Below, piece after piece: positions 1 to 19,573 of a DNA stretch of 20,305 nt. The stretch comes from a virus: positions 1 to 20,305 of the IMG/VR virus record IMGVR_UViG_3300028103_000382, one strand, 5' to 3'. The position numbers were made by a program, and so were the translations under genes. The notes beneath the pieces were generated by a model. It did not search any database, was not told where the DNA came from, and was given only the letters and a program-made list of their open reading frames with translations. Within the stretch, counting starts at the first letter, position 1. Each line of letters begins with the position of its first letter.

Positions 1-562
1 TGCTACCTGGAACGGTAATGCCAACATCGTTAACTTGATTAACAAATGCCTGAGCAGATGCTGTACTATAACTATCCATAGTTGCAGAACAGGTTACTGA
101 TCCTGCCGGTGCAGCCCAATCTGCTGTAGATCCACGCAGAATTCCGCCTTGTGGGTAGATTTTATTATCGCCGTAATAGGCAGTATTAGTTGTCCAGGTA
201 ATTGGACGAACAGGCTGTTCAAATTGGAATTCGATTCTTACCAGTCCGTCTTCAAGTTTGGCACCTCGGTGTTGCTCCACTGCGCCTGTTCTTTCGATGA
301 ACTTGAACTTGTTGCCTTCTGTGAGATTGCCGTTTTTGACTGATCGCTCGAGGTCGACTTCTTGTCCAGCGTTAAGAACAATGCCACCAGGGACCATATC
401 ATCACCGTCGATATATACGTTAACGACAGCACGGGTCGTATGTAGATTCTTAAGTAGTATTGAATATTCTGATCCAAACGGAACATAAACGGTGTCCTTA
501 AATTCTCTTAGGACTTTGCCTTTAACTTTGATAGCCGCGGCTAATTTTGATTCGTACATCAT
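1..562 (-). CDS. hypothetical phage protein, C-terminus beyond window
   Basis: An open minus-strand frame starts at two consecutive ATGs (562 and 559) and runs off the left edge after 187 codons without a stop. A good Shine-Dalgarno GGAG lies at 569-572, six bases before the first ATG. The N-terminal part (about residues 20-110) is beta-rich, with a GSEYSILLKN...RAVVNVYIDGD...GGIVLNAGQEVDL pattern. From memory this resembles small beta-sandwich proteins of phages, possibly virion-associated. The next part is rich in Tyr, Thr, Gly and Ser. It is served by its own perfect late promoter (640-647), which fits an abundant late, possibly structural product. Function is unknown and the family assignment is an inference. 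Confidence 0.75.
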   Translation of the reverse strand, partial: MMYESKLAAAIKVKGKVLREFKDTVYVPFGSEYSILLKNLHTTRAVVNVYIDGDDMVPGGIVLNAGQEVDLERSVKNGNLTEGNKFKFIERTGAVEQHRGAKLEDGLVRIEFQFEQPVRPITWTTNTAYYGDNKIYPQGGILRGSTADWAAPAGSVTCSATMDSYSTASAQAFVNQVNDVGITVPGS

Positions 563-5016: not shown

Positions 5017-5343
5017 TTATACTCTAAAACTTTCTCCGCAACCGCAACGGTCACGTTCATTTGGATTGACAAAATCAAACCCTTCATTTAATCCATTTTT
5101 TACCCAGTCTATAGTTAATCCGTCTAGATATACTAACGACTTTGCATCTACTAATATTACAAAATCATCTGTAGCAAAATTTGTAACGCCAACTTCTGCT
5201 TCATACTCGTCTACATATTCTAACACATATGCCAAACCACTGCAACCAGTAGTTTTAACTGCTAGTCGAATTCCCACACCTTTGCCTCTATTCTTAAGCA
5301 GGTGTTTGATTTTAGTTTTGGCTGTGTCGGTTACGGTAATCAT
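5017..5343 (-). CDS. iscA: A-type iron-sulfur carrier, IscA/HesB family
   Basis: A 108-aa protein with the three signature cysteines of A-type carriers: Cys34 in TTGCSGLAY and Cys100/Cys102 in the C-terminal CGCGESF. The domain order (MITVTDTAKTKIKHLL, GIRLAVKTTGCSG, then NEGFDFVNPN) and length match IscA. It accepts Fe-S clusters from IscU and hands them to apo-proteins. It starts inside the last 32 nt of iscU, in another frame, so the two are translationally coupled, and nrdB starts 2 nt after its stop. No iscS, hscA, hscB or fdx is present in the window. Confidence 0.93.
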   Translation of the reverse strand: MITVTDTAKTKIKHLLKNRGKGVGIRLAVKTTGCSGLAYVLEYVDEYEAEVGVTNFATDDFVILVDAKSLVYLDGLTIDWVKNGLNEGFDFVNPNERDRCGCGESFRV

Positions 5344-5701
5344 TTACGGCCGCTTTGATCGCATCTTCTGCAAGTATTGAACAATGAATCTTAACAGGGG
5401 GAAGGGCAAGCTCAGTAGCAATCTCGCTATTTTTAATCTGTTGCGCTTCGTCAAGCGTTCTGCCTTTGAGCCACTCAGTAACGAGCGAACTCGACGCAAT
5501 CGCGCTTCCACAACCATACGTTTTAAATTTGGCATCTTGTATAATTCCTGTGGTTTCGTCTACTTTAATTTGTAGCTTCATTACGTCACCACAAGCAGGT
5601 GCACCGACCATGCCTGTACCTACGCTAGGATCAGCTTTATCAAAGCTACCAACGTTACGTGGATTTTCGTAATGATCAATAACCTTGTCTGAGTAAGCCA
5701 T
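5312..5701 (-). CDS. iscU: Fe-S cluster assembly scaffold IscU
   Basis: A 129-aa complete IscU: Cys37 with Asp39 in GAPACGD, Cys64 in YGCGSAI, and His106/Cys107 in KIHCSILAEDAIKAA. The LPPVK motif recognised by the chaperone HscA is at 100-104. All cluster ligands are present, so the scaffold should be functional and could interact with the host IscS and HscA. It overlaps the sod gene by 26 nt and has its own GGGAG ribosome binding site eight bases before the ATG, inside the end of sod. It resembles bacterial IscU closely and is probably host-derived. Confidence 0.95.
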   Translation of the reverse strand: MAYSDKVIDHYENPRNVGSFDKADPSVGTGMVGAPACGDVMKLQIKVDETTGIIQDAKFKTYGCGSAIASSSLVTEWLKGRTLDEAQQIKNSEIATELALPPVKIHCSILAEDAIKAAVNDYRNRHSQN

Positions 5702-6233
5702 TTATTTTCTCCCAGTTAATGATTTTCCATTGGTTCTCTAAATATTTTTTCTTGTCTGCTTGGTAGTCTAATGCCCACGCATGTTCCCACCAATCGACTA
5801 AAACTAAAATATCTTTTTTTATTTCGTGATTTTTTATTGTTTTAATTTCGCCAGATTTAGTTAAGTATACCCACCCACTGCCTTGAATGCTCATGGCAAT
5901 TTTAAAAAATTCTTCTTTAAATTTATCAAATGTAGAAAAATGCTCTTCAATGAATTCTAAAGATTTTCCTGTAGGTTTATTTGCAGAATTATATTCTTGA
6001 TATTGTTGAAACAAAATGTTATGTAGGAAAACTCCAGCTTCGTTAAAGTCAGGATCACCTTCACCGGCATTATATCTTTCAGCATAAGCCTTGGCTAATT
6101 TACCATAGTGATATTCGATTGTATTTTTTGATATAGCAGGATTTAGTTCATTAGAATCGTAAGGAAGACTTTCAATTTCTAATTTATGAGCTTTACCTTC
6201 TTTGAGTACATTTCGAATAAAACTAAATGTCAT
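5676..6233 (-). CDS. iron/manganese superoxide dismutase
   Basis: A 185-aa SodA/SodB-family enzyme. Metal ligands are His42 (TIEYHYGK), His71 (VFLHNILF), Asp147 and His151 (VDWWEHAW). Tyr50 matches the active-site gate tyrosine. Differences from E. coli FeSOD: Leu46 replaces the gate histidine (His30), Gly67 is at the FeSOD Gln69 site, and His136 falls where MnSOD carries its Gln146. An N-terminal extension of about 15 residues precedes the usual start. The loop before Asp147 is short. It starts within the nrdA stop (ATGA). Metal preference cannot be decided from sequence, so no sodA/sodB symbol is given. Likely role: protecting radical and Fe-S enzymes during infection. Confidence 0.92.
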   Translation of the reverse strand: MTFSFIRNVLKEGKAHKLEIESLPYDSNELNPAISKNTIEYHYGKLAKAYAERYNAGEGDPDFNEAGVFLHNILFQQYQEYNSANKPTGKSLEFIEEHFSTFDKFKEEFFKIAMSIQGSGWVYLTKSGEIKTIKNHEIKKDILVLVDWWEHAWALDYQADKKKYLENQWKIINWEKINGLLRQGY

Positions 6234-15254: not shown

Positions 15255-15581
15255 TTAACTAATTGCTTCCATCATTCTACGAAACCATGCTACGGTTCCT
15301 ATTTGGAAACTTTCAATAGTGTTTTGCTTGGGCAATTCTATTTCTTTGCGAGCTGCTTCAATTAGCTTTTCGTAATTGGGAAGTTTAATAATAACATTAA
15401 CAATAGATTCAACGGTGGCTAAATCTTTGTCTGTGGTCATTTGTCCTAGCAAACGTTTGGCAATTTGATTTTCGTCAGTAATGTTGATATCATTTTCAAC
15501 AAGACCTAGCTCAGAACTATAAGCTAGTCCTTTAGCTTCAGCAATAGACGATAAAAGTAATTCTTTATTCTTCGGATTCAT
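15255..15581 (-). CDS. conserved hypothetical phage protein, 108 aa
   Basis: A mostly helical soluble protein (MNPKNKELLLSSIAEAKGLA, QIAKRLLGQMTTDKDLATVE, ESIVNVIIKLPNYEKLIEAA) ending with SFQIGTVAWFRRMMEAIS. The ATG lies 17 nt inside the end of the upstream gene, so the two are coupled. No membrane segment or catalytic motif is seen. The pair resembles small conserved late proteins of aquatic T4-like phages. Function is unknown. Confidence 0.75.
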   Translation of the reverse strand: MNPKNKELLLSSIAEAKGLAYSSELGLVENDINITDENQIAKRLLGQMTTDKDLATVESIVNVIIKLPNYEKLIEAARKEIELPKQNTIESFQIGTVAWFRRMMEAIS

Positions 15582-15846
15582 TTAACTTATTCTTATGTTT
15601 TTTTGATTCTGAAATTTTTCTAACACCTCGCACAAATTTGGCGGGGTCTTGCCCTTTAATAGCATTAATAAGCCTACGCTCTAATTCATCTGCTTGTTCA
15701 GGGTCGTAGTGCTTATGAATACTTTCAAGTAAATTGATTGCAGAATTAATAATATTGGTGGCTCTGCTTTCGATGAGAGCATCAGTATTGCGTCGAGACG
15801 CAACTTCATTTAGTTCCTGCAAAATTGAACGAGTTCTTAGTTTCAT
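15565..15846 (-). CDS. conserved hypothetical phage protein, 93 aa
   Basis: A helical, charged protein: MKLRTRSILQELNEVASRRN, NTDALIESRATNIINSAINL, then EQADELERRLINAIKGQDPA, KFVRGVRKISES and a Lys/Glu-rich tail. I recall similar proteins in cyanophage-type T4-like phages (motif RRLxNxIKGQDPxKFxRGxRKI), function unknown. It is the first minus-strand gene after the divergent region and is followed by its partner at 15255-15581 with a 17-nt overlap. Only a weak GGAA precedes the ATG. Confidence 0.75.
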   Translation of the reverse strand: MKLRTRSILQELNEVASRRNTDALIESRATNIINSAINLLESIHKHYDPEQADELERRLINAIKGQDPAKFVRGVRKISESKKHKNKLNESEE

Positions 15847-15868
15847 CGCAATTCCAATTCGTATTATG

Positions 15869-15876
15869 TATTTAAC
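15869..15876 (-). promoter_or_regulatory. weak late promoter-like octamer GTTAAATA
   Basis: GTTAAATA on the minus strand, 23 nt upstream of the gene starting at 15846, in the divergent region. It matches the late octamer at six of eight positions. The same octamer occurs at 13613-13620. Confidence 0.35.
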
Positions 15877-15904
15877 TCAGATTAATCTATATTAAACAAA
15901 ATTG

Positions 15905-15917
15905 TTGATAAAATCAA
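15905..15917. promoter_or_regulatory. dyad TTGAT-AAA-ATCAA, possible operator
   Basis: A perfect 5-bp inverted repeat with a 3-nt spacer lies 3 bp upstream of the -35 box of the plus-strand promoter and between the divergent genes. A regulator site is possible, but AT-rich dyads of this size also arise by chance. Confidence 0.3.
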
Positions 15918-15920
15918 GTG

Positions 15921-15950
15921 TTGAAAAAATGTGCGGGTGCAGCATATAAT
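15921..15950 (+). promoter_or_regulatory. sigma70-type promoter for the plus-strand genes
   Basis: TTGAAA (15921-15926) and TATAAT (15945-15950) with an 18-bp spacer: five of six and six of six matches to the consensus. Predicted initiation near 15957 serves the genes from 16009. A GCTAAATA sequence at 15952-15959 overlaps the start site and could add a late function. Confidence 0.75.
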
Positions 15951-16008
15951 TGCTAAATATATTAGTAGAAACCATGAGTTGCTACACACACTTACAGAGG
16001 ATAGACAG

Positions 16009-16188
16009 ATGAAAATCTTATCAAGAAAGATGCTAGCCATTTTAGAGCGACTAGCAGAGATGTTCCCAGATAGCTCTTATCAAAGCCGCTTAGATCAATA
16101 TCTAAGTACCAAAGGCATTACCGATGCCGCTCAGTTAGAAAACTACATACGTGAATTCAGCTATAACAGCAAGGAGCAATATCTATGA
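16009..16188 (+). CDS. small DUF3563-like protein, 59 aa
   Basis: Starts MKILSRKMLAILERLAEMFP and continues SRLDQYLSTKGITDAAQLEN YIREFSY with a short polar end. The pattern of an amphipathic N-terminal helix followed by YLS...D-A-AQLE-YIRE resembles DUF3563, a family of short proteobacterial proteins of unknown role. The frame is open further upstream to 15931, but that part runs through the promoter. The ATG at 16009 with AGAGGA eight bases before it is preferred. It overlaps the next small gene by ATGA. Confidence 0.7.
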   Translation: MKILSRKMLAILERLAEMFPDSSYQSRLDQYLSTKGITDAAQLENYIREFSYNSKEQYL

Positions 16189-16286
16189 AATTGATCAAAT
16201 CAACTTGGAATTTTTTAATAGCTTGTGCAGAATCATTGCACGAATATCGAAATCGTAAAGGCTATAGAAACGGCGGATATTATTAA
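16185..16286 (+). CDS. very small protein, 33 aa
   Basis: MKLIKSTWNFLIACAESLHE is followed by YRNRKGYRNGGYY. The start overlaps the stop of the DUF3563-like gene (ATGA), and AAGGAG (16171-16176) lies eight bases before the ATG, a strong ribosome binding site. The amphipathic first half (W-N-F-L-I-A...E-S-L-H-E-Y-R) and basic Gly/Tyr end suggest a membrane-surface or nucleic-acid-contacting peptide. It is too short for homology to be judged by eye. Coupling and ribosome binding site make it a probable gene. Confidence 0.6.
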   Translation: MKLIKSTWNFLIACAESLHEYRNRKGYRNGGYY

Positions 16287-16327
16287 AAACTAAACAAAGG
16301 AAATTTACTCGAATGTTCGTATTTCCG

Positions 16328-16356
16328 TTGAATTTTTAGTAAAAGAGATATATAAT
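16328..16356 (+). promoter_or_regulatory. sigma70-type promoter
   Basis: TTGAAT (16328-16333), a 17-bp spacer and a perfect TATAAT (16351-16356). Predicted initiation is near 16362, upstream of the phasin-like gene at 16417. A stem-capable repeat GGAAAT/ATTTCC (16299-16304, 16321-16326) just before it may end the upstream unit. Confidence 0.7.
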
Positions 16357-16416
16357 AAAGATTACAAAGCAGGTTGCTGAGTAATCGTAAAACATACACA
16401 CACAAGGAGAAAAATT

Positions 16417-16635
16417 ATGTTTACAGCAGACTTTATCATCGACAGCGTTCAAAACGCTAAAAAGCAATTTGTTAACACTTTTGTCGTTAACAATGAATCT
16501 TTCAAAGCAGAACTTATCAAATTAGTAGATGCACAAACTGAATTTGCTAAGGGTCAGGTTAAAACTACTCTTTCAATTGCAGAAGCATTTGTTAAAAACG
16601 CATCTGATGCAGTTTACGCAAAAAAAAGCAAGTAA
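16417..16635 (+). CDS. phasin-like helical protein, 72 aa
   Basis: An all-helical amphipathic protein: MFTADFIIDSVQNAKKQFVN, then FKAELIKLVDAQTEFAKGQV, KTTLSIAEAFVKNASDAVYA and a lysine end. The LVDAQTEFAKGQV stretch resembles the core of phasins, the proteins that coat polyhydroxyalkanoate granules and influence their size and turnover, but it is shorter than most cellular phasins (about 100-190 aa). It has its own sigma70-type promoter and a strong ribosome binding site (AAGGAG). A generic membrane- or granule-surface amphipathic helix is the alternative. The family call rests on pattern memory only. Confidence 0.55.
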   Translation: MFTADFIIDSVQNAKKQFVNTFVVNNESFKAELIKLVDAQTEFAKGQVKTTLSIAEAFVKNASDAVYAKKSK

Positions 16636-16664
16636 TTTTTTAACACACACAGAGGAAAAATAAA

Positions 16665-16940
16665 ATGACAAATAACGGATTAAATGAAATGGTTAAAGCA
16701 CCAGAAGTTAAATTTAATAAAAACGGTTACGAGATTAGAACAGAAGTTTTAGCTATGGCTAAGGACTTGGTTGGTCAAGACTTCCACTATAAATATTTGG
16801 GTTGGGAAGCTACCGTTGAACGTGATAAAGAAGGTAAAGTTATTACTAAAGTTAATATGCCTGAGTTTCCTGGAATTGAAAAAGTTCTAGAAGCTGCTGA
16901 AAAGATGTATTCTTTTGTAAATACAGGCGCGAAGAAATAA
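16665..16940 (+). CDS. conserved phage protein, 91 aa
   Basis: A soluble alpha/beta protein: APEVKFNKNGYEIRTEVLAM, AKDLVGQDFHYKYLGWEATV, then a charged turn ERDKEGKV, ITKVNMPEFPGIEKVLEAAE and KMYSFVN. I recall near-identical unannotated proteins in T4-like cyanophages and other marine myoviruses, often with the FNKNGYEIRTE start. It has an AGAGGA ribosome binding site with an ACACACACA tract before it, like the two upstream plus-strand genes. It is the last gene of the plus-strand island. Function is unknown. Confidence 0.8.
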   Translation: MTNNGLNEMVKAPEVKFNKNGYEIRTEVLAMAKDLVGQDFHYKYLGWEATVERDKEGKVITKVNMPEFPGIEKVLEAAEKMYSFVNTGAKK

Positions 16941-16984
16941 TATAGTCCACCGCATAGCGGTATTATATAATTATGTACTAGAAA

Positions 16985-17008
16985 GAAAGGGCCCTTCGGG
17001 GCCCTTTC
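16985..17008. terminator. bidirectional hairpin terminator
   Basis: GAAAGGGCCC (16985-16994), loop TTCG, GGGCCCTTTC (16999-17008): a perfect 10-bp stem with a UUCG tetraloop between convergent genes. The U-richer side (TTTCTTTC) faces the minus strand. A weaker hairpin ACCGC/GCGGT (16949-16961) precedes it on the plus side. Confidence 0.9.
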
Positions 17009-17009
17009 A

Positions 17010-17714
17010 TTATGATCTAATTTTTGCTAAGTTTAATTTTTCAAGAATTTTAATATACAACCAACCTATATCAAACTCAAACCACTTGCGACTCAGTTTA
17101 GGGTTAGCGCCATCTCCGTGGTGGTTGTTATGTAATTCTTCACCGCCAATTAAAAATCCAATAGGAAAAATATTTCTGCTATTGTCCTTGACATCATAAT
17201 TACGATACCCCCACCAATGTCCTATTCCGTTCACAACTCCTGCTGCAAAGAAAGGAATCCATATCATTTGAACTCCCCACACTACTACCCCAACAAGACC
17301 AAAAAGAACAAGGTCTATGACCAACATTAAAAGAATTCCTGCTAGGGGGTGGGGAGTATAAACATTGCGTTCAATCCAATCATCTGGAGTACCAATGCCA
17401 AGTTTATCGATCATATCTCTGTCTTTACTGGCTATTCCGTAATACCGTACTCCGTTGAACACTATATTTTTAATTCCAAAAATTAAAGGGCTATGAGGAT
17501 CACCTTCTTTATCTGCATATTGATGATGTTTTCTATGTATTGCTACCCATTCTTTTGTGATCATTCCTGTAGTTAACCATAACCAAAAACGCATAAAGTG
17601 TTCAACCCAAGGATGAAATTGTACTGCTCGATGTGTTTGACCTCTATGCAAATATAGAGTAACACAGGCAATGGTAATTTGTACCATTACCAGAGTATAT
17701 ATAAATTCTATCAT
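17010..17714 (-). CDS. membrane fatty acid desaturase (delta-9 acyl desaturase type)
   Basis: A 234-aa integral-membrane diiron desaturase with all three histidine boxes: HRGQTH (23-28), HRKHH (60-64) and HNNHH (195-199), plus a GHWWGYRN histidine. Hydrophobic segments lie about residues 4-22, 42-58 and two more around 125-165. The order and spacing match bacterial DesC/stearoyl-CoA-type desaturases, though it is shorter than most. It introduces a double bond into acyl chains using oxygen and reduced ferredoxin or cytochrome. The ATG overlaps the hydrolase stop, so it belongs to the isocitrate lyase operon. Phage-encoded lipid desaturation could alter membrane fluidity during infection. Confidence 0.92.
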   Translation of the reverse strand: MIEFIYTLVMVQITIACVTLYLHRGQTHRAVQFHPWVEHFMRFWLWLTTGMITKEWVAIHRKHHQYADKEGDPHSPLIFGIKNIVFNGVRYYGIASKDRDMIDKLGIGTPDDWIERNVYTPHPLAGILLMLVIDLVLFGLVGVVVWGVQMIWIPFFAAGVVNGIGHWWGYRNYDVKDNSRNIFPIGFLIGGEELHNNHHGDGANPKLSRKWFEFDIGWLYIKILEKLNLAKIRS

Positions 17715-18295
17715 AAAAATTTCCCTATCCTGTCTAGGATAATGTTAACTACTTGATCACTAATAACAACTTCATAATGATTTAAAGGGACTTCAATTTG
17801 TTCAAAGTCTTGTCTGTAACGCATACTCTCTAGAGTAACTACCCCGTCATTGGGCTCATGTATCCAAGGACTCTGACCAACCGTGGTAACAACCTGAGTC
17901 CAATTTGGTGGGGCAGGTAAATCTCTAGCCACTATCATTGGTTTACTCATGGTGCCTACATCTTTCATTAGCCTATTAAAAGGCAGGAAGTAACGAGCAA
18001 AATCTGCTTCTTTACTTCCACCGTAGGGTGTGCTTAAACTTACACCGCCGTGTGTAGTTTCTTTATAATGATTAGCCAAATACAAAGAATAGATACCACC
18101 TAGACTATGGCTAATAAAGAACAATCGGTCAGCATCGTCGAGTTGACCTTTCATTTGATTAAGGTTGTGCATAAACCCGTCATCACTCTTATATTCAAGC
18201 ATGATGTCGGGTTCTTCAAATGTGTCTCTAACATATTGTCTAATGTGCGTAAAACTTGCGGCAGTTGCACTTGCACCATGAATATATACTATCAT
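17711..18295 (-). CDS. alpha/beta hydrolase
   Basis: A compact 194-aa serine hydrolase. The oxyanion-loop HG is at 6-7 (MIVYIHGAS), the nucleophile elbow SHSLGG contains Ser64, and the likely acid and base are Asp150 (PNDGVVTLESM) and His173 (PLNHYEVV). The GGVSLSTPYGG stretch after the elbow resembles lipase/acyl-hydrolase-like members (PGAP1/lipase type). No signal peptide, so it acts in the cytoplasm. It starts 3 nt after the isocitrate lyase stop and overlaps the desaturase. The substrate (acyl ester, thioester or polyester) cannot be decided. Confidence 0.88.
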   Translation of the reverse strand: MIVYIHGASATAASFTHIRQYVRDTFEEPDIMLEYKSDDGFMHNLNQMKGQLDDADRLFFISHSLGGIYSLYLANHYKETTHGGVSLSTPYGGSKEADFARYFLPFNRLMKDVGTMSKPMIVARDLPAPPNWTQVVTTVGQSPWIHEPNDGVVTLESMRYRQDFEQIEVPLNHYEVVISDQVVNIILDRIGKFL

Positions 18296-18298
18296 ACA

Positions 18299-19573
18299 TT
18301 AATGAAATTGTTCTTCCTCTGTGCTACCAACTAGTGCTTGAGTAGAAGCATCTGCTTCGATGGTTGTAGTAACACGATCAAAATATCCTGTTCCTACTTC
18401 TCTTTGATGTTTTACTGCCTCAAACCCTAATGCCTGATTTGCAAATTCTTGCTCTTGCATTTTTACAAAAGCGGTCATTCCTTCTCGGGCATATCCATGT
18501 GCTAATTCAAACATACCGTTGTTTAAATTATGGAATCCGGCAAGAGTAATAAATTGAAACTTATAACCCATCGCACCTAATTCGCGTTGAAACTTTGCAA
18601 TGGTTGCATCGTCTAGGTTCTTCTTCCAGTTAAATGATGGCGAGCAGTTGTAGGCTAACATTTTACCTGGATGGTGTTTGTGTACTTCTTCTGCAAATCT
18701 TCTTGCGAAATCAAGATCAGGTTTCCCTGTTTCACACCATACAAGATCGGCGTAGGGTGCGTAGGCAACGGCTCTTGAGACTGCTTGTTCAAATCCGTTC
18801 TTTGTACGATAAAATCCTTCAACGGTTCTTTCGCCAGTAAGGAAAGGACGATCATTATCATCAACATCACTAGTGATAAGATCGCCTGCTTCGGCATCAG
18901 TACGGGCAATAACCAAAGTAGGCACGCCCATGACATCAGCAGCAAGACGAGCAGCAACCAATTTGTTAATAGCTTCTCTTGTTGGTACAAGTACTTTTCC
19001 TCCCATATGTCCGCATTTTTTTACTGAGGCTAACTGATCTTCAAAATGTACACCGGCTGCACCGGCTTCGATCATAGCTTTCATTAATTCAAATGCATTT
19101 AACACTCCGCCAAACCCAGCTTCGGCATCGGCAATTATTGGAGCATAAAAATCTTGTTCTTTGCCTTCGCTCCAAGCAATCTGGTCTGCTCTTCGAAATG
19201 TATTATTAATCTTACGAACTACTGACGGGACCGAGTTAGCTGGATACAAACTTTGATCAGGGTACATTTCTCCTGCTAAATTAGCATCGCCTGCTACCTG
19301 CCATCCTGATAGATAAATTGCTTTTAATCCTGCTTTAACTTGTTGTAATGCTTGCATACCTGTTAAGGCACCAAGTGTATTAATATAATCTTCTGTGTGA
19401 AGAAGTTTAAATAATTTGTTTGCTTGTTCAACAGCGAACTGGCTCGGATGTATTTTGCTGCCTTGTAGGCGTACTACATCCTCTGCTGTGTAAGGTCGTT
19501 TAATACCGTTCCATCTTGGGTTTGTGGCCCAATCTTGTTGTAGTTCTTGCTGTCTCTGTGTACGTTGGTCCAT
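18299..19573 (-). CDS. aceA: isocitrate lyase
   Basis: A 424-aa, essentially full-length isocitrate lyase (E. coli AceA 434 aa). It cleaves isocitrate to succinate and glyoxylate, the first step of the glyoxylate shunt. Diagnostic features are the KKCGHMGGK signature with catalytic Cys187 and His189, YPDQSLYP (Asp106), [10 protein letters not shown] (metal-binding Asp149, Glu151), WCETGKPDL, and the C-terminal GSTEEEQFH tail. Alignment from memory shows only small loop deletions against AceA. All active-site residues appear intact. It has its own CATAAATA octamer and a strong AGGAGG ribosome binding site. No malate synthase or regulator is in the window. It is unusual in a phage and is probably host-derived. 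Confidence 0.96.

Follow-up and report, generated by a model that had tools for sequence, protein, structure and literature searches.

The main finding of this study is that four small genes, p1 to p4, form a plus-strand island (15847-17009) in a 20,305-base virus record, here called the window and meaning the whole stretch of DNA analysed, in which all other genes lie on the minus strand. The island recurs in relatives with its strand and both of its promoters conserved. We consider it fairly probable that it is a conserved and portable phage cassette that is transcribed rightward from two tandem promoters, a late-type promoter (P1) and a host sigma70-type promoter (P2). An original prediction had read the same island as an early or host-take-over cassette embedded in a late region. 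What it observed was mostly right and is partly confirmed here, and its interpretation proves half right and is partly supported, because of its two sigma70 boxes one marks a conserved promoter and the other adjoins a late-type core that it had missed.

The plus-strand island and its two settings

The features of the island and its flanks in the window are the following:

15565-15846, minus strand: m_93, the left flank, divergent from the island; virion structural protein, PHROG 11854 (PHROGs E 3.4e-20)
15869-15874, minus strand: TAAATA core, 28 nt upstream of m_93; putative late-type promoter of the minus strand
15932-15941, no strand assigned: dyad TGC-GGGT-GCA with a 4-nt spacer, putative P1 operator; a dyad in 26/49 relatives
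15954-15959, plus strand: TAAATA, putative late-type core of P1; NTAAATA in 49/49
16009-16188, plus strand: p1, 59 aa, DUF3563-like
16185-16286, plus strand: p2, 33 aa
16328-16356, plus strand: P2, sigma70-type, TTGAAT-17-TATAAT (TATAAT at 16351-16356), 10/12 match, conserved
16360-16386, plus strand: 5' leader hairpin of the predicted P2 transcript, -10.1 kcal/mol, z -3.48
16417-16635, plus strand: p3, 72 aa, predicted two-helix protein (helical hairpin)
16665-16940, plus strand: p4, 91 aa, highly conserved
16985-17008, no strand assigned: terminator-like hairpin GAAAGGGCCC-TTCG-GGGCCCTTTC, with a cUUCGg loop on the plus strand
17010-17714, minus strand: DesA-type fatty acid desaturase, converging on the island from the right (Pfam PF00487, NCBIfam NF049918)
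17711-18295, minus strand: alpha/beta hydrolase, with sub-threshold Pfam matches only
18299-19573, minus strand: isocitrate lyase (NCBIfam NF011645, 778.5 bits)

When viral contigs were scanned, 23 loci were obtained for p3. For p4 the number of related stretches was at least 595, and we retained the best 80. The virion gene m_93 and p4 lie on opposite strands in all 74 fetched loci that hold both, a set that is partly redundant (L003 to L007 and L009 share local sequence, for example, and L002 and L025 are one contig). The isolated plus-strand island of four small genes in the original prediction is therefore borne out. Within these 74 loci, p3 and p1 are on the plus strand wherever they were found (62/62 and 39/39, respectively) and all 41 desaturase genes lie on the minus strand. 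Relatives of the alpha/beta hydrolase occupy the plus strand in six loci and the minus strand in eight. The gene content between p2 and p3 varies, with a GNAT acetyltransferase or an alpha/beta hydrolase there in some loci; the window has its hydrolase gene outside the island.

The linkage of p1, p3 and p4 is also seen in a second genomic setting. In the 28 p4 loci that hold no virion gene, a few of which are island-type pieces ending at a contig edge, p4 has p1 and/or p3 as same-strand neighbours in 26, and both of them in 20. For one of them, L077, Pfam assignments made for this locus show the p1-p3-p4 trio flanked by a 5'-3' exonuclease gene on one side and a DNA ligase gene on the other, with one strand throughout. 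Such a neighbourhood is usually termed early or middle. TAAATA is found in 19 of 21 distinct regions upstream of cassettes without the virion gene, together with the divergent L023 and L024, mostly at 100 nt or less from the first gene and as a count that carries no shuffled control. Since 19 of these 21 regions in other settings hold TAAATA, the late-type core appears to belong to the cassette and not to its surroundings. A tblastn search of 50,697 phage records with p3 and p4 was negative, as was a megablast search with the window.

The cassette is thus very widespread, yet all four of its proteins are without annotation. The window p1 has no match in Pfam, and DUF3563 (PF12086) is absent from the matches of 18 members of its family. 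However, while the Pfam model itself misses p1, the p1 family profile reaches DUF3563 proteins: of 200 Burkholderiales genomes, three contain a protein that the profile matches (E 2e-7 to 3.8e-4). Two of these three pass the curated cut-off of DUF3563, and a p2-like small ORF follows the third. We therefore call p1 DUF3563-like by profile homology to accepted members, p1 itself being below the curated cut-off. The literature collection that was searched holds no publication on DUF3563. The p2 protein has a weak match to PHROG 14625. The AlphaFold2 model of p3 is all-helical with two helices (mean pLDDT 77) and has no match in the PDB at E 0.001; p3 matches no Pfam family at a meaningful score, and its profile brought up no relative when genomes were scanned, nor any in a set of 200 Burkholderiales genomes (0/200). 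By eye p3 had been suggested to be a phasin, and this candidate was rejected: no phasin family (PF09361, Phasin_2) is among the Pfam matches of 23 members, and hhalign against eight host phasins gave a probability of 2 percent. The alignment of the p4 family has 30 invariant columns in 19 rows, and searches of p4 in Pfam, NCBIfam and PHROGs and structure prediction (pLDDT 52) gave nothing usable as to function.

To the right of the island, the desaturase, the alpha/beta hydrolase and the isocitrate lyase form a consecutive minus-strand row (17010-19573), the last of them a phage-borne glyoxylate-shunt enzyme that is present in three of 13 related virus records searched. The window isocitrate lyase shares 72-79 percent identity with the 80 genome loci kept, mostly from Burkholderiales, and this identity suggests a Burkholderiales host for this phage. 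Other minus-strand genes of the window include virion genes and, as far as inspection of the translations by eye can tell, genes for subunits of ribonucleotide reductase. The same inspection by eye suggests, at 5017-6233 (minus strand), a pair of small genes for iron-sulphur assembly proteins of the IscA and IscU types, next to a possible superoxide dismutase gene. A tRNA with anticodon CTA, which reads amber, is at 890-965 on the minus strand (tRNA-Pyl by ARAGORN; Rfam tRNA, 56.5 bits) and is possibly an amber suppressor; among 36 genes tallied, the stop codon is TAG in one, TAA in 23 and TGA in 12.

Probable tandem promoters and the ends of the predicted transcript

The original prediction placed two right-facing promoters with perfect TATAAT boxes at 15945 and 16351. 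Both boxes are present, but only the one at 16351 is conserved in relatives. The first box (15945-15950, plus strand), with TTGAAA at a spacing of 18 nt, gives an 11/12 match to sigma70. We compared P1 across 49 distinct regions between the virion gene and the cassette, taken from the 74 loci with m_93 and p4 after identical or short regions were removed. The TATAAT is kept at its place in four of the 49, whereas a plus-strand NTAAATA is present in all 49 (shuffled mean 10.3, largest 16). The base preceding TAAATA varies, and the inner TAAATA alone is fixed. In the window, this core begins just past the first TATAAT, and the island therefore carries the octamer type that had been ascribed to the other genes only; that those other genes are all on the minus strand was correct.

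The positions 10-100 nt upstream of the minus-strand gene starts make up 2743 of the 20,305 nt of the window. This zone takes in ten of the 12 minus-strand copies of TAAATA and one of the five plus-strand copies. Exact TATAAATA is not enriched in the window (2 sites vs 2.4 expected), nor is ATAAATA (8 vs 9.6 expected), and sigma70-like sites are not in excess across it (55 found, 61.4 expected). Because exact TATAAATA is not enriched, the label late-type is based on the core, its position and the analogy with T4, by which the short TAAATA would be a late promoter core. The T4 late promoter is TATAAATA, given as 5'-TATAAAT-3' in the available part of one source (PMC3037559). P1 resembles T4 late promoters in having an A+T core of like kind shortly upstream of genes, so that the octamer-like sequence is found at P1 for the TAAATA core only. 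It differs from them in that just the inner TAAATA is fixed and in that a dyad lies 20-22 nt upstream. Among the 49 regions compared for P1, 10 also fit a loose sigma70 pattern (shuffled mean 0.73, largest 4), and because of these matches and the 11/12 match of the window, P1 may be dual, both late-type and sigma70, in some phages including the one analysed here. A hairpin in the P1 leader is seen in many relatives; it is mostly conserved in sequence and is not claimed.

The second box belongs to P2. In a set of 46 distinct regions, the pattern TTGNNN-16..18-TATANT is found upstream of p3 in 37 (shuffled mean 0.36, largest 3), with a spacer that is mostly 17 nt. Of the nine regions without the pattern, seven come from loci that lack the flanking virion gene, and the other two are L022 and L092. 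P2 thus has the conserved -35 and -10 hexamers, 16-18 nt apart, of a sigma70 promoter. Where BLAST found no p3, the sigma70 pattern is still present upstream of p4 in 14 of 27 regions (shuffled mean 0.18, largest 2). The P2 spacer, from the -35 to the -10 hexamer, contains inverted repeats in short-leader phages (L033, L040, L045, L056 and others). The sequence of these repeats varies, TATCCCtcAGGGATA being one example.

In relatives with longer leaders, the P2 transcript would begin with a hairpin, and leaders of about 30 nt are without one. Within one leader subclass of 11 sequences, seven of nine pairs change on both sides and 84.8 percent of cells pair (63.9 in shuffled alignments). The covariation score is 0.560; slid pairings reach 0.065 at most, and the shuffled control gives 0/500. 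The alignment was restricted to this subclass, and because the window leader is of another type, the covariation holds for the relatives and not for the exact stem of the window. At the other end, the UUCG terminator that had been predicted is present as the hairpin at 16985-17008, and a terminator-like hairpin also follows p4 in relatives: at least seven pairs form after p4 in 48/48 distinct relatives, 26 of them with a cTTCGg loop, both counts being given without a shuffled control.

These features are consistent with a scheme in which P1, as a phage late-type promoter with its core at 15954, would transcribe p1-p2-p3-p4 late, and P2, as a host sigma70-type promoter, would allow transcription of p3-p4 from early on. 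The P2 mRNA would have the hairpin and a strong ribosome site at its start and the UUCG-loop hairpin after p4 at its end. As to timing and activity, we infer that the cassette is probably active throughout infection and not early only. A purely early cassette, in which host RNA polymerase would use both promoters for host take-over before late transcription, seems unlikely to us. The strength and conservation of P2, the 11/12 sigma70 match of P1 in the window, the sigma70 pattern before p4 in 14 of 27 regions and the place of the L077 trio beside replication genes all argue for such a cassette, but the TATAAT of P1 is kept in so few relatives as against the invariant TAAATA, and cassettes in other settings also begin behind TAAATA. 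An early cassette inside a late region does not, as it was originally written, agree with a front promoter that has the late-type NTAAATA in 49/49 and with a trio that elsewhere is mostly behind TAAATA.

The dyad upstream of the first promoter

A dyad, TTGATAAAATCAA at 15905-15917, had been proposed as a possible operator. The dyad is present, but it is kept in only one of the 49 relatives, and it is another dyad (15932-15941) that is kept in about half. TGC-N3..5-GCA is found in 26 of the 49 distinct relatives, the window included, and is absent from 23; in 26/26 it starts 20-22 nt before TAAATA. Its spacer is 3 nt in six, 4 nt in 17, among them the window, and 5 nt in three. A strict palindrome, with one mismatch allowed, was searched for in 13 virus records: the 162-kb record (G016) has it at the island only, and the match in another record (G014) is not beside a cassette.

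The available part of the literature on Herbaspirillum gives the PhbF operator as TG[N]TGC[N]3GCAA (PMC3206438). The phage dyad has the same TGC and GCA triplets, likewise forms a dyad in a promoter and has similar flanks, but it differs from the phasin operators of PhbF/PhaR, as the available text describes them (PMC3206438), in that the host consensus spacer is 3 nt and that of most phages is 4 nt, and in that the downstream phage gene is not a phasin gene. In the host loci that we read, the strict TGC-N3-GCA precedes 15 of 28 phasin genes in one set (30 fetched, two short ones skipped) and nine of 16 in a second set (18 loci, with the short L231 skipped and L240 left out of the count), and also seven of 14 DUF3563-type genes (shuffled means 0.12, 0.05 and 0.04). 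The strict site with a 4-nt spacer is found in 0/58 of these phasin and DUF3563 loci. Among the host dyads found before the 28 phasin loci, 36 of 44 have a 3-nt spacer, and the 3-nt spacer is also found in small, lower-G+C Burkholderiales genomes, a set in which short loci were again skipped. A host operator with a 4-nt spacer was tried and rejected: the tested form is found in 7/399 Burkholderiales genomes, no more than the reversed control pattern, and in none of the loci read is it beside a phasin gene. Several of the DUF3563 host sites lie about 30 nt before the start codon, and PhaR-type TGC-N3-GCA stands just upstream in the bacterial DUF3563 loci L243, L244, L245, L246, L248 and others. 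A phage-encoded PhaR (PF07879) was also looked for in 14 phage records, with one sub-threshold match and none over the cut-off.

Two readings of the dyad as an operator can be weighed on these data. One is that PhaR of the host binds it, so that the operon would respond to the polyhydroxybutyrate status of the cell and the island would be a host-regulated storage-carbon cassette. The fixed position of the dyad and its similar half-sites, the TGC-N3-GCA sites at host phasin and DUF3563 genes together with a DUF3563-like p1, and the isocitrate lyase nearby are all in line with it. However, a 4-nt spacer in the window and in 17/26, in a form that the 58 host loci do not have, a dyad that is missing in 23 of 49 phages and a p3 that is not a phasin make it rather improbable. 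The other reading, that a phage-encoded regulator specific to P1 alone among the late promoters binds the dyad, we regard as possible but doubtful. It would account for the exact palindrome at the island only in the 162-kb record and for a spacer that differs from that of the host, but no candidate regulator was found, PhaR being the sole family tested in the 14 phage records. The capture of both gene and operator is an attractive idea, because p1 is DUF3563-like and the TGC...GCA dyad is at a fixed place. We nevertheless do not claim membership of the PhaR operator family, because of the 4-nt spacer in the window and in 17 of the 26 dyads and because 4-nt host sites are not beside phasins in the loci read; by its sequence the dyad is a candidate site.

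Wider meaning for phage and host

Beside the preferred reading of a portable cassette with tandem promoters, a weaker option is that the dyad before the P1 core would be an operator for a PhaR/PhbF-type regulator, and that the cassette and the neighbouring isocitrate lyase would act on host carbon storage; this role in storage carbon is a specific and testable guess. Extended to a large T4-like phage family of betaproteobacteria, it would mean that a portable cassette came partly from the host DUF3563 family, which is apparently PhaR-controlled, and that a late promoter received a copy of the operator at a fixed position. A late operon would thereby read the carbon-storage state and, with isocitrate lyase, turn stored polymer into phage biomass. 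We hold this larger picture to be speculative and unlikely. Phages are known to touch host storage-polymer metabolism, since phage-borne genes for polyhydroxyalkanoate metabolism, including phaC, phbB and fadJ among the seven named in the available text, have been described (PMC12013262). The cassette would share this target, but none of those seven named genes is seen here, and it consists of small proteins only. Cyanophage genes under NtcA or Pho boxes (PMC3037559, in its available part) offer a parallel, in that a phage promoter may carry the site of a host nutrient regulator, but there both the regulator and the kind of site are different, and the P1 dyad is a candidate by sequence.

On the side of the hosts, the PhaR-type sites in front of Burkholderiales DUF3563 genes suggest that the polyhydroxybutyrate regulon includes this uncharacterised family, and they are a first hint at the role of the family. 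If the dyad is indeed a host operator, the idea from NtcA and Pho boxes, that phages plug into the nutrient regulators of their hosts, would extend to carbon storage. For the phage family itself, the conserved tandem promoters and the covarying 5' hairpin suggest that the proteins of the cassette are wanted in quantity during the whole of infection.
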